Assembly: GCF_018122625.2 (NCBI RefSeq)
Contig: NZ_JAGQFT020000002.1
Span: 372,001 to 436,000, forward strand
Length of the DNA stretch: 64,000 bases
DNA from: Coralloluteibacterium stylophorae
Lineage (GTDB): Bacteria; Pseudomonadota; Gammaproteobacteria; Xanthomonadales; Xanthomonadaceae
Direction: 5' to 3'
Part shown: positions 8,416 to 25,573 of the stretch, one piece after another
Layout: every line of letters begins with the position of its first letter
Position numbering within the stretch: the first letter of the stretch is position 1
Notes under the pieces: generated by a model
Databases searched by the model: none
What the model was told of the DNA's origin: nothing
Seen by the model: only the letters and a program-made list of their open reading frames with translations
Program-made: the position numbers and the translations under genes

Positions 8416-8485
8416 CCTGTAGGAGCGGCTTCAGCCGCGACCCAGCCCAACACGAGGCGGTCGCGGCTGAAGCCGCTCCTACAGG
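8416..8485. repeat. Inverted pair of REP units forming a long hairpin
   Basis: The 27-base unit at 8416-8442 (core GTAGGAGCGGCTTCAGCC) is repeated perfectly in inverted orientation at 8459-8485, with a 16-base loop. The hairpin could act as a transcription terminator or an mRNA stabiliser after the acyl-CoA dehydrogenase gene. REP pairs of this type are mobilised in trans by RAYT transposases in relatives; none is present here. Confidence 0.8.
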
Positions 8486-14494: not shown

Positions 14495-14694
14495 GGGATG
14501 GAGCGGGAAGCGGGCGTGGTGAGGCGGGACTCGGGACCTGGAGGTCGCGCTGAAGCTGGGCGCAGGGTCAGGGGTCCAAGGCTCGAAGCCCGGCATGAAG
14601 TTCCTGCCCGCCTCACGCCCTGGGCCCCGCAGCCCGTTCGGGCCCCGTCATTCCCGATTCCCGATTCCCGCTCCATCCCTCCCGCTTCACCCCA
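14495..14694. repeat. Intergenic GGGAA-type repeat element (copy 2)
   Basis: The left arm (about 14495-14543) runs GGATGGAGCGGGAAGCGGG and ends in CGGGACTCGGGACCTGGAGG. The right arm (about 14649-14693) is its complement type, ATTCCCGATTCCCGATTCCC then CTCCATCCCTCCCGCTTCACC. The middle is unique. It directly follows the nadK stop and precedes the 5'-nucleotidase start. Confidence 0.7.
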
Positions 14695-18263: not shown

Positions 18264-18773
18264 TCAGGCCGCCCGCGCCGCCGCGTGGCGGCGTTCGTGC
18301 TGCAGCAGCCAGCGCTTGACCGGGAGCCCCCACAGGAAGCCACCGAGGCTGCCGTCGCTGCGCAGCACGCGGTGGCAGGGCACGACCACGGCGATGCGGT
18401 TGCCGGCGCAGGCGCCGCCCGCGGCACGCACCGCCGTCGGGCGGCCGGCGCGTGCGGCGAGGTCGCGGTAGCTGAGCGTGGTGCCGGCAGGAATCGCGCG
18501 CATCGCCGCCCGCGCCGCCTGCACGAAGCCGCCGCCCGGCTGCGCGACCGCGAGCGCGCCGACCGCCTCCACGTCGCCCTCGAGGTAGGCGCGCAGCGCC
18601 CGGGTGACGGCGCCGAGCTCGCCCCGCTCCCGCCACCTCGCGTCCGGACGCGGCAGCAGGGCCTGCGGCCGGGCGGTGAAGCCGGCGGCGTGGAGCACGC
18701 CGTCGGCGTCGGCGAGCAGGCTCAGCGGGCCGGCGGGCGTGGCGAGGGTGGTGCCATCGGGACAGGCGGGCAT
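18264..18773 (-). CDS. ogt: Methylated-DNA--protein-cysteine S-methyltransferase
   Basis: A 169-aa O6-alkylguanine-DNA alkyltransferase, a suicide repair protein that takes the alkyl group onto its own Cys. The active site PCHR is at residues 132-135 in VVVPCHRVLRSDGSLGGF, preceded by the DNA-binding helix-turn-helix around [19 protein letters not shown]. The start (ATG 18773) lies 52 bases inside the upstream Ada-AlkA gene, in another frame, so the two are translationally linked. Together they give both repair chemistries of the adaptive response: base excision and direct reversal. The Ogt domain, which is part of Ada in E. coli, is here a separate gene. Confidence 0.92.
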   Translation of the reverse strand: MPACPDGTTLATPAGPLSLLADADGVLHAAGFTARPQALLPRPDARWRERGELGAVTRALRAYLEGDVEAVGALAVAQPGGGFVQAARAAMRAIPAGTTLSYRDLAARAGRPTAVRAAGGACAGNRIAVVVPCHRVLRSDGSLGGFLWGLPVKRWLLQHERRHAAARAA

Positions 18774-20260
18774 GACGGGCTCCGGCGTGCGGTGGAAGCG
18801 GGGCGCGGCGTCGCCGCGGCGAGATGCGCCCACAGGTGCAGGGCGGCGTAGGCGCGCCAGGGTCGCCAGCTTTCGGCGCGCGCCTGCAGGCTGCGCGGAT
18901 CGTCGGGCAGGCAGAGCAGGCGCAGGGCGTTGCGCAGGCCCAGGTCGGTCAGCGGCATCGCGTCCGGGTCGCCGAGCGCGCGCATCGCGATGTAGTCGGC
19001 GGTCCAGGCGCCGAAACCGGGCAGGGCGAGCAGCGCGTGCCGGGTGGCCGCACGATCGGCGCCGGCATCGAGCTGCAGCCGGCCTTCGACCACCGCGTTC
19101 GCCAGCGCATGCAGCGCGCGGATGCGGCCCCCGGTGAGACCGAGGCCGGAGAGGGCGTCGCCGGCGATCGCCGCCGACGTCGGGAAGAGGTGGGTCAGCC
19201 CATCGACCTGCCGTTCGAGCGGCGCACCGAGGCGGGCGACCAGGCGCGCGGCCAGGGTGCGCGCGCCCTGCACCGTGACCTGCTGGCCCAGCACCGCGCG
19301 GACCGCCAGCTCGAAGCCGTCGACGTGTCCCGGCACGCGCAGGCCGGGCCGTGCGGCGACCAGTGGCGCCAGGGCCGGATCGAGGGCGAGCACGCCGGCG
19401 ACGGCCTGCGGATCGGCGTCCATGTCGAACAGGCGCCGGCAGGCGGCGACGGCCGCGCCGAGATCGCGCAGGTCGCCGAGGCGCAGGCGCAGCTGGGCGT
19501 AGCCGCCGTCGCCGTCGGGCGTGACCGCGACCAGCGCCGTGCCATGGGCCAGGCGCAGGCTGCGTCGGTAGGTGCTGCCGTCGCAGGCCTCGATGCCGGG
19601 CACGGCGCGCGTGGCGAGAAACGCCAGCAGGCCGCGCGCGTCGTACGGACGCCGCACCGCGAGCCGCAGCGCCAGCTCGCCGCTGTCGTCGGCGGCAGCG
19701 GGCCGCCGCGCGCGCAGTGCGCCCGGCGCGCAGCCGTAGGCCTCGCGGATGTGCGTGTTGAACTGGCGCACGCTGCCGTAGCCGGCGACGAAGGCGATCT
19801 CGGTGGCCGGCAGCGCCGTGGCCTCGAGCAGCAGGCGGGCGGTCTGCGCGCGTCGGGTGCGGGCAAGCGCCAGTGGACCGACGCCGACCTCGGCCAGCAT
19901 CTCGCGGTGCAGGTGGCGCGGACTCACCGCCAGGCGCGCGGCCAGCGCGCCGACGCCGGCATCGTCCAGCGCGCCGGCGTGGATCAGCCGCAGCGCGCGG
20001 GCGACGCGGTCGGCGCGCACGTCCCAGGCGCTCGAGCCCGGGGTGGCGTCGGGCCGGCAGCGCCGACAGGCGCGAAACCCCGCCGCCTGCGCCGCCGCCG
20101 CGGTGTCGAAGAAGCGCACGTTCTCCGCCCGCGGCGTTCGCGCCGGGCAGCTCGGTCGGCAGTAGATGCCGGTCGTGCGCACCGCGGTGAAGAACACGCC
20201 GTCGTAGCGCTCGTCGCGGCTGGCGATGGCCCGGTAGCGGGTGTCGAAGCTGTCGCTCAT
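18722..20260 (-). CDS. alkA: Ada-type methylphosphotriester sensor / AraC / AlkA 3-methyladenine glycosylase fusion
   Basis: A 512-aa three-part protein. Residues about 1-75 are the Ada zinc domain with four Cys (YCRPSC and ACRRC), whose first Cys accepts methyl groups from DNA phosphotriesters. Residues about 80-185 are an AraC-type helix-turn-helix region (LAARLAVSPRHLHREM, IAFVAGYGSVRQFNTHIREAYG). The rest is AlkA: an N-terminal beta domain, then the HhH-GPD core with LPGFGAWTADYIAMRALG and the expected catalytic Asp in PLTDLGL. It probably senses methylation, activates its own operon and excises 3-methyladenine. The last 30 residues are Pro/Ser/Arg-rich and overlap ogt, so they are probably unconstrained. 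Confidence 0.92.
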   Translation of the reverse strand: MSDSFDTRYRAIASRDERYDGVFFTAVRTTGIYCRPSCPARTPRAENVRFFDTAAAAQAAGFRACRRCRPDATPGSSAWDVRADRVARALRLIHAGALDDAGVGALAARLAVSPRHLHREMLAEVGVGPLALARTRRAQTARLLLEATALPATEIAFVAGYGSVRQFNTHIREAYGCAPGALRARRPAAADDSGELALRLAVRRPYDARGLLAFLATRAVPGIEACDGSTYRRSLRLAHGTALVAVTPDGDGGYAQLRLRLGDLRDLGAAVAACRRLFDMDADPQAVAGVLALDPALAPLVAARPGLRVPGHVDGFELAVRAVLGQQVTVQGARTLAARLVARLGAPLERQVDGLTHLFPTSAAIAGDALSGLGLTGGRIRALHALANAVVEGRLQLDAGADRAATRHALLALPGFGAWTADYIAMRALGDPDAMPLTDLGLRNALRLLCLPDDPRSLQARAESWRPWRAYAALHLWAHLAAATPRPASTARRSPSCPPVPMAPPSPRPPAR

Positions 20261-20320: not shown

Positions 20321-20481
20321 GTGAAGCGGGGTGGGAAGGCGGGGGTAAACGGGAATCGGGAATCGGGACCTGGAGGGTCTCGCGCTTGTCGCGGCCGCCC
20401 TTCGTGCGGCGCTGCCCAGAGGCGAAGCGGGTCGGGCGATCGCCGAAGCCGGGGTCCCTATTCCCTATTCCCGATTCCCTC
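20321..20481. repeat. Intergenic GGGAA-type repeat element (copy 3)
   Basis: The left arm has GTGAAGCGGGGTGGGAAGG, then CGGGAATCGGGAATCGGGA ending in CCTGGAGGG; the right arm (about 20453-20481) is GGTCCCTATTCCCTATTCCC and GATTCCC. The core is unique. It sits between accA (stop at 20497, minus strand) and the start of the Ada-AlkA gene, so it is downstream of accA and upstream of alkA. Confidence 0.7.
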
Positions 20482-20496
20482 GCCACCGACGAGGCA

Positions 20497-21456
20497 TCAC
20501 GCCCCCTCGTACGCCCCGTAGGAGCGCAGCCGCTCGTAGCGGCGCTGCAGCAGGACGTCGACGTCGAGCGTCTCCAGCGCCTTGATCTCGTTGAGCAGCA
20601 CTGCCTTCAGGCGGACCGCCATCGAGCGCGGGTTGCGGTGCGCACCGCCGGTGGGCTCGCGCACCACCTTGTCGATCAGGCCCTGCCTGTGCAGGCGCGA
20701 CGCGGTCAGGCCCATGGCCTCGGCGGCGTCCCTGGCCTTGTCGGCCGACTTCCACAGGATCGAGGCGCAGCCTTCCGGCGAGATCACCGAGTAGGTGCTG
20801 AACTCCAGCATCAGGGTGCGGTCGCCGACGCCGATGGCCAGCGCGCCGCCGGAGCCGCCCTCGCCGATCACGGTGCACACGATCGGCACCCGCAGCTCGC
20901 TCATCTCCAGCAGGTTGCGCGCGATCGCCTCGGACTGGCCGCGCTCCTCCGCGCCGACGCCGGGATAGGCGCCGGGCGTGTCGATGAAGGTCAGGATCGG
21001 CAGGCCGAAGCGTTCGGCCAGCTTCATCAGCCGTAGCGCCTTGCGGTAGCCCTCCGGGCGCGGCATGCCGAAGTTGCGGCGGATCTTGCTCTTGGTGTCG
21101 CGGCCCTTCTGGTGGCCGATCAGCACCAGCGGACGCCCGCCGATGCGCGCCAGGCCGCCGACGATGGCAGGGTCGTCGGCGAAGGCGCGGTCGCCGGCCA
21201 GCTCGTGGAACTCGTCGCAGATGAGCCCGACGTAGTCGAGCGTGTAGGGCCGCGCGGGATGGCGCGCGACCTGGGAGACCTGCCAGGGCGCGAGGTTGCG
21301 GAAGATCTCGGCGCTGCGCTGGCGCAGCTTGGCCTCGAGCGTGCGGATCTCGGCGGTGGCGTCGACCTCGGAGCCGGTGCTGGCGTGCCGCAGTTCCTGG
21401 ATGCGTGCTTCTAGGTCGGCGATGGGCTGTTCGAAATCGAGGAAATTCGGGTTCAT
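20497..21456 (-). CDS. accA: Acetyl-CoA carboxylase carboxyltransferase subunit alpha
   Basis: A 319-aa subunit that with AccD transfers the carboxyl group from biotin to acetyl-CoA, the first step of fatty-acid synthesis. It is full length, beginning [20 protein letters not shown]. It has the acyl-CoA carboxyltransferase motifs [57 protein letters not shown] and [21 protein letters not shown]. The gene follows dnaE, as in many gammaproteobacteria, but 380 bases separate them and contain a long GGGAA-type repeat array. It may therefore have its own promoter, although none was recognised. Confidence 0.95.
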
Positions 21457-21544
21457 GCGGTCGTGGATCGCGGCCCGGAGGGCACAAGACGGGCAGGATA
21501 GCCGATCGCCTCCGAGGGCCCCAGTTCGCGGGGGTATGGTGGGG

Positions 21545-21828
21545 GGGCGGGTGAAGCGGGAAGAGGGAAGAGGGAAGAGGGAATCGGGAAGCGGGAACGG
21601 GGAACGGGGAACGGGGAACAGGGAACAGGGAACAGGGAACGGGGAACAGGGAACAGGGAACAGGGAACAGGGAACAGGGAACAGGGGGCCTGCCCAGGCA
21701 CGGAGCTGGCGCCTCTGCGCGACGCTCTGGAAACACGATCGCAGCCGCGCAGCCTCCAGGTCCCGGTTCCCGATTCCCGATTCCCGATTCCCGGTTCCCG
21801 CTCCACCCTTCCCCGTTCCCGCTTCACC
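21545..21828. repeat. Intergenic GGGAA-type repeat element (copy 4), largest
   Basis: This fills most of the 380-base dnaE-accA gap, in which no gene is credible. The left part is an 18-unit heptamer array (21558-21683). The core (about 21684-21750) is unique. The right arm begins CCTCCAGGTCCCGGTTCCC and continues as CGATTCC units to GCTCCACCCTTCCCCGTTCC and CGCTTCACC. Left and right arms are complementary in type, so long-range pairing is possible in single strands. Confidence 0.75.
21558..21683 (+). repeat. 18-copy 7-bp minisatellite (GGGAANN)
   Basis: Eighteen consecutive heptamers of the form GGGAANN are in perfect register. They begin with three GGGAAGA, then GGGAATC and GGGAAGC, three GGGAACG, three GGGAACA, one GGGAACG and six GGGAACA. 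A further GGGGG run follows. The plus strand has a GGG run every 7 bases, which satisfies simple G-quadruplex rules many times over. The minus-strand genes read across it from dnaE to accA, so the G-rich strand is the template strand. Confidence 0.9.
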
Positions 21829-21836
21829 GCCATACC

Positions 21837-25391
<3,555 letters not shown>

Positions 25392-25540: not shown

Positions 25541-25573
25541 GCCGGGAATCGGGAACCGGGAATTGGGACCTGA
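25541..25573. repeat. Intergenic GGGAA-type repeat, single arm (copy 5)
   Basis: Heptamers GGGAATC, GGGAACC and GGGAATT are followed by GGGACCTGA, the same inner boundary as in the larger elements. No clear opposite arm is present; GCCCGCCTCACCCC near 25590 may be its remnant. It lies just after the rnhB stop. Confidence 0.65.

Follow-up and report, generated by a model that had tools for sequence, protein, structure and literature searches.

Among tandem DNA repeats, one survey ranked intergenic heptamers first in abundance in many different prokaryotes, the part of it used here giving no clue to their function (PMC6344855). The closest described systems are the GGGAATC, or (GGGANTN)n, repeats of two Xanthomonas genomes, to which Rehm et al. 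(2015), in the sections drawn on here and below, assigned no function (PMC4692102). These repeats have 2–26 units, form 70 and 75 convergent pairs in the two genomes, and count dnaE among their associated genes; circular dichroism (CD) showed that repeats of the GGGAATC class form quadruplexes (G4s) (PMC4692102). In RNA-seq of Xac, transcripts often start or stop at repeats, and do so more commonly at G4-capable repeats than at those unable to form G4s (PMC4692102). In X. euvesicatoria, according to the portion of the report consulted, heptamer loci of GGGATTT, GGGATTC or GGGAATC (6–18) and of CGATTCC (5–12) are variable-number markers used for typing (PMC8002079). Cyanobacterial heptanucleotide repeats (GGGGA(C/T)T in Nostoc, and those of Calothrix) share the period and the intergenic location, and in Nostoc also the G-richness; the Nostoc repeats differ in having only a few inverted pairs, as PMC4692102 describes them. 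GTAG-type REP/BIME pairs are likewise convergent, inverted and intergenic but, in the accounts used here, have a short palindromic unit without heptamer period and are linked to Y1 transposases. Intrinsic (Rho-independent) terminators also place a hairpin directly past a stop codon, ahead of the next promoter.

Structure of the dnaE-accA spacer

The window, that is, the whole stretch of 64,000 nucleotides from Coralloluteibacterium stylophorae that was analysed, contains a run of heptamers between accA and dnaE, gene names that an earlier note had assigned from the letters and that NCBIfam models bear out. The features of the spacer and its flanking genes are:

20497–21456, minus strand: accA, acetyl-CoA carboxylase carboxyltransferase subunit alpha (NCBIfam NF004344 / TIGR00513)
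21495–21501, minus strand: weak accA −10-like motif CTATCCT, 45 nt before the ATG (relatives mostly CTAGACT, CTACACT or CTAAACT, at ~35)
21550–21562, plus strand: outer clamp GGTGAAGCGGGAA of the accA-side arm, a perfect inverted copy (13 bp) of 21816–21828
21558–21683, plus strand: accA-side arm, 18 tandem GGGAANN heptamers, the expanded arm (sequence, TRF)
21684–21764, no strand: loop or spacer between the arms, 81 bp (sequence, predicted fold)
21765–21799, minus strand: dnaE-side arm, 5 GGGAANN heptamers with the inward end GGGACCT (sequence)
21807–21820, minus strand: dnaE-side arm, outer two heptamers (sequence)
21816–21828, minus strand: outer clamp of the dnaE-side arm, GGTGAAGCGGGAA on this strand (sequence)
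21837–25391, minus strand: dnaE, DNA polymerase III subunit alpha (NCBIfam NF004226), followed after its stop codon by the inverted repeat

The 18 consecutive GGGAANN units claimed in the earlier note are seen directly in the sequence, and TRF reports the array at 21558–21686 with period 7, 18.4 copies, 93% matches, 0% indels and a score of 181. The ordered blocks described there are also real (AGA ×3, ATC, AGC, ACG ×3, ACA ×3, ACG, ACA ×6), with one ACG sitting within the ACA block. Adjacent units are alike in 11 of 17 cases against a shuffle mean of 5.0, a value of 11 being reached by 2 of 20,000 shuffles; this fits stepwise local duplication and supports the stepwise expansion that the note had proposed. 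The array is not a chance product, because the three-unit GGGAANN pattern has 318 matches (168 + 150, including overlapping matches inside one array) in the 4.0-Mb genome, against a single match (1 + 0) of the reversed control. The exact copy number depends on the assembly, since the genome is a 29-contig draft, and by analogy with the typing markers it might plausibly vary between strains.

An inverted partner array, overlooked in the first reading, lies 81 bp from the 18-unit array (21765–21820) and is G-rich on the minus strand. The whole inverted repeat thus spans 21550–21828, beginning a few bases past the dnaE stop and ending upstream of the accA −10-like motif, and its arms are unequal, with 18 units against 5 + 2. 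Its components recur elsewhere in the same genome: a clamp-type leader, GRTGRAGC, precedes several other arrays, and the inner end GGGAANNGGGACCT (GGGACCT after GGGAANN) has 42 matches against 2 for the reversed pattern. The same inner end was found once in one of 11 other genomes.

Like the Xanthomonas repeats, the array has a seven-base period and a GGG start, and its kind is dispersed, mostly intergenic and nearer to the ORF on the 5' side (PMC4692102). With respect to the definition of at least two units including at least one exact GGGAATC, unit 4 of the 18 is GGGAATC and the dnaE-side arm has three; the general form GGGANTN does not describe the array, position 6 being C or G instead of T in 17 of the 18 units. 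It also differs in its inner end GGGACCT and in lying in a genome outside Xanthomonas. Rehm et al. reported, in the sections used here, finding no such repeats in other gamma-proteobacteria (PMC4692102), whereas we find three-unit GGGAANN in 34 of the 54 genera sampled from this family. Because convergent GGGAATC repeats with G4 formation in vitro were described by Rehm et al. in 2015, this kind of array is already known. What is new is the pattern across the family, in which, as judged from the sequences, relatives keep the dnaE hairpin while swapping its heptamer, sometimes without the usual G4 motif.

The hairpin is unlike an intrinsic terminator in its very long, mismatch-interrupted stem and its long loop; a terminator scan of 21400–21900 returned 0 sites, that is, no short GC-rich stem with a T run behind it, and neither a U-tract nor a terminator consensus. 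The GTAG tag of the REP/RAYT system is absent as well, a GTAG/CTAC search of the 380-bp dnaE-accA spacer finding none. Convergent, intergenic palindrome pairs of the TGTAGGAGCGGCTTCAGCCGCGAC type, with the look of GTAG REPs, do occur elsewhere in this genome and in others: at window positions 8416–8485, in L180, L181, L183, L184 and L192, in the G137 and G252 samples, and between dnaE and accA in a Rhodanobacter MAG (L018). L184 (G000:C1:240001-260000) also holds CCTTCCCCCGCAGGCGGGGGAAGG-type inverted pairs, four of them within 7 kb.

The accA −10-like motif lies 57 bp accA-ward of the array. Of 70 spacers (own included), 67 have such a motif in their final 90 bases; it stands 32–51 nt before the ATG in 65, compared with a mean of 0.57 and a maximum of 3 of 70 at that place in 200 shuffles. 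The median distance to the ATG is 35 overall and 45 in our locus, which also has the weaker match, and a sigma-70 consensus scan there found no promoter-like site. Since the motif is accA-ward of the array, the array is probably outside the accA transcript, and transcripts of accA probably start after it.

The spacer in related genera

The dnaE-accA spacer was compared in two sets of relatives, in which g18 denotes Xanthomonas, g17 Pseudoxanthomonas, and g16 a genus that we call Lysobacter-like, by eye, from the resemblance of its accA promoter region to that of Lysobacter sp. yr284 (L009). Direct orthology of the GGGAA arrays was rejected in the first set, where 0 of the 34 spacers from other genomes held two consecutive GGGAA heptamers (3 of the 34 exceed 1 kb; another 16 non-own loci were excluded for want of accA or of a usable dnaE end). 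The second set, from array-rich genera, yielded them in 7 of 36 (L140, L144, L152–L155 and L157, in Xanthomonas and g7; 40 were fetched, 4 without a dnaE end). Two or more consecutive GGGAA heptamers are thus found in 7 of 70 non-own spacers over both sets. Two records are doubled (L019 = L151 and L010 = L169): this count (34 + 36) keeps both pairs, while the −10-like motif count, also of 70 with our own locus included, drops L019 only.

Hairpins past the dnaE stop elsewhere are built from GGGAATC, GGGATTC, GGAGTGA or GGAACGA heptamers, with GGGATTC in Xanthomonas and g7, and GGAGTGA or GGAACGA in g16. Folding of the spacers shorter than 500 bp gave z < −2 in 27 of 48 stretches (own included, both doubled pairs among the 48). 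From three related genera, 23 loci were picked by eye as the best-developed hairpins; 21 of these have z < −2, and all begin 0–12 nt past the dnaE stop. Arms in this chosen set (own included) pair with their own partners at −58.8 kcal/mol and with the arms of other loci at −42.4 kcal/mol, a difference reached in 0 of 20,000 permutations, and in 6 of 20,000 when permutation was confined to genera and all were taken together. Genus by genus, the result was 5 of 20,000 in the Lysobacter-like genus; it is weak or non-significant in Xanthomonas (895 of 20,000) and g7 (3,416 of 20,000). The dnaE hairpin is not essential, because several lineages do without a strong one: at L170–L173, four of the six g17 loci, and at further loci as well, the spacer is short and folds into no strong hairpin. 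Six g7 loci (L141, L143, L145, L146, L149 and L150) have ~1 kb between dnaE and accA, the extra stretch starting, by eye, like a small lipoprotein gene; five other g7 members have the hairpin in its place.

For our own 307-nt stretch the predicted folding energy is −160.1 kcal/mol, which corresponds to z −8.4 relative to 100 dinucleotide shuffles. The arms pair with each other in the dnaE sense strand, where the prediction includes no G4 and gives the same energy whether or not G4s are allowed. The antisense strand gains 16.6 kcal/mol when they are allowed (−155.7 to −172.3), and the isolated G strand about 36 (−3.1 to −38.8), both with RNA parameters. The G4 potential announced in the earlier note is therefore real for the isolated G strand, while in the sense strand of dnaE the predicted hairpin leaves no room for a G4. 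A motif of four G3 runs, the score used here, to which two-tetrad G4s are invisible, is present at our locus and missing from both strands of 15 of the 23 hairpins, including 6 of 7 in the Lysobacter-like genus. At the dnaE site, conservation thus reaches further for the mirrored hairpin than for the quadruplex. Mismatches of the G.U and A.C types number 25 and 23 in the 16 loci with an alignment score of at least 40 (one of them not heptamer-built), a null result, and with the two equal, selection acting on the sense RNA is not indicated.

Heptamer arrays across the family

In our own genome, 464 kb (20 stretches plus the window) were surveyed; all but one of the 19 arrays found (18) are intergenic, and 17 of these 18 lie nearer the ORF 5' of their G strand. 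In a partly overlapping set from the same genome, opposed pairs within 260 bp are convergent in 17 cases and divergent in none. Both features agree with the Rehm repeats. Three further arrays or pairs in the window are:

14649–14669, minus strand: intergenic GGGAANN array (TRF, sequence)
20351–20479, no strand: convergent heptamer pair directly downstream of accA (sequence)
25544–25564, plus strand: GGGAANN array between rnhB (ribonuclease HII) and dnaE (TRF, NCBIfam)

Samples of 400 kb from other genomes gave 13 of 13 intergenic and 12 of 13 nearer the 5'-side ORF in G137, and 8 of 12 intergenic and 7 of 8 nearer that ORF in the Xanthomonas genome G063; the G252 sample had no arrays. Pooled, 36 of 39 intergenic arrays have their nearer ORF 5' of the G strand, with gene calls from a simple codon-usage script, also used for the inverted-repeat scan, that missed at least one short gene. 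All 11 opposed pairs in three samples are convergent (this set partly overlaps the 17 above), no divergent pair was seen in the three samples or the own-genome set, and some arrays are unpaired. The adjoining ORF end is a start in 20 cases and a stop in 19, so that no general link to gene 3' ends is shown. Partners in our genome resemble each other weakly in unit type (0.437 against 0.318; 577 of 20,000; 17 pairs). Heptamers were rejected as a rule for hairpins: a de novo scan of long intergenic inverted repeats returned mostly REP-type or other elements, with only a handful of period 7 or 14.

Among 297 genomes of the family (own included), whose counts run from 0 to 673 matches, the three-unit pattern occurs in 133, in the 34 genera given above, often with few matches. 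The matches in G016 (g17) are strongly strand-skewed, 8 forward against 207 reverse, perhaps reflecting one very long array. In L127 (G000:C2:53200-55200), L124, L125 and L131, short G-rich tandem units (GGGACCT, GGGGCTT, GGCTTT, GGGGATT) adjoin GGGAANN arrays.

Units and inner ends differ between lineages. Two-unit GGAGTGA was found in 6 of the 7 genomes of g16, against 0 among 7 tested from elsewhere; for this count the reversed control is not independent, the reversed unit being a rotation of the same heptamer. GGAACGA was found in 4 of the 7 g16 genomes, mostly G251 (18 matches). G251 is without a two-unit GGAGTGA match, and G292 has both units. A second orthologous locus, away from dnaE, has GGAACGA as the inner heptamer of each arm in L260 (G251) and GGAGTGA in L293 (G204), where the outer heptamer of one arm is GGAACGA. 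The inner end GNAAAAGC or GTAAAAGC is common to the GGGAATN arrays of G063, G284, G270, G290, G137 and G204 (15–45 each, control 0–1), and is carried also by GGAGTGA arrays in G137 (4) and G204 (11); other genomes, including our own and the dense G019, have 0–6 such matches. Shared inner ends are not general, as neither GNAAAAGC nor GGGACCT follows arrays in G019, the densest genome, or G240, and GAGTGAGTAAAAGC is confined to 2 of 12 genomes. In the Lysobacter-like genus, arms built much like GGAACGA-GTGNAGA-GGAGTGA-GGAGTGA-GTAAAAGC recur. We found no literature on the Lysobacter-like units within the one library searched.

Possible role and origin of the hairpin

We tentatively prefer, at a little short of an even chance, the reading that the 18-unit array is the overgrown arm of the heptamer-built inverted repeat at 21550–21828 after the dnaE stop, and that its arms fold as a boundary of the dnaE transcript. 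The observations behind it are the head-to-head arrays, the 13-bp clamp, the place between the dnaE stop and the accA −10-like motif, and equivalent hairpins with matching arms in other genera; the frequent starts and stops of Xac transcripts at repeats also speak for a boundary. Against it stand the missing U-tract, the equal G.U and A.C mismatches, the lineages in which the hairpin is dispensable, arrays beside gene starts as often as beside stops, and arrays that stand alone. When transcribed through, the arms would fold into one long, register-tolerant stem, which might mark the end of the dnaE transcript by slowing read-through into accA, by blocking 3' exonucleases, or by both. Slippage in one arm, here to 18 units, would be tolerated because units with a GGGAA core let one heptamer pair with many others, and occasional template switching or selection would keep both arms alike.

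A serious rival, which we nevertheless regard as rather unlikely, is functionless slippage DNA: heptamers would expand in spacers, the arms would be made alike by quasi-palindrome template switching, and selection would only clear genes. The blocks of identical units in the 18-unit array, its excess over the partner arm, the equality of G.U and A.C mismatches, the rarity of consecutive GGGAA heptamers in other dnaE-accA spacers and the patchy genome counts all suit this account. Slippage alone leaves unexplained the convergence of opposed pairs, the bias towards the 5'-side ORF, and the inner ends (GNAAAAGC, GGGACCT) common within some genomes. The mechanism put forward in the earlier note, a quadruplex in the G-rich template that holds up RNA polymerase between dnaE and accA, appears improbable, also when extended to replication. 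It gains from the folding energies of the isolated G strand and the antisense strand, from the CD evidence on repeat oligonucleotides, and from the Xac transcript ends, which favour G4-capable repeats, these being under-represented mid-transcript (PMC4692102); because that trend concerns G4-capable repeats, it fits a quadruplex at least as well as our hairpin reading. Against the mechanism are the predicted sense-strand hairpin, the probable start of accA past the array, and the majority of equivalent hairpins without the four-run motif, a score that leaves two-tetrad G4s aside.

Still less probable, in our estimate, is that the arm pair is a non-autonomous mobile element, REP- or MITE-like, spread by a transposase. 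Dispersed copies with common inner ends in some genomes and the recurring arm layout of the Lysobacter-like genus would agree with such an element; the spacers, however, differ between loci as judged by eye, and the Y1 (RAYT) family has 0 matches in G019, with 673 array matches, and two in G252, with 0. No association of RAYT with arrays was found, its presence not tracking them in the 8 genomes tested. Our own genome has five Y1 (RAYT) transposase matches; four Y1_Tnp (RAYT-like) matches lie within ~10 kb at G000:C4:399096-409204, and a fifth at C5.

Two readings that are inseparable in a single genome come apart when the same orthologous site is followed through several genera, the mirrored arms often being kept without the G4 motif, and this contrast directs experiments to arm pairing and transcript ends as well as to G4s. 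A wider proposal, which we consider unlikely, is that the heptamer hairpins of the family are one dispersed type of element whose unit is largely a property of the lineage, swapped in both arms at the same loci while period 7 and the mirror layout persist. This reading draws on two orthologous sites, dnaE and L260/L293. If true, it would call for an active homogenising process, for instance a trans-acting enzyme or gene conversion between the dispersed copies, and the period, not G-richness, would be the kept feature. Elsewhere in the window, at 18722–20260, a protein matches two families, Ada (AraC-like, in its N-terminal part) and DNA-3-methyladenine glycosylase 2, with scores below the curated cut-offs.
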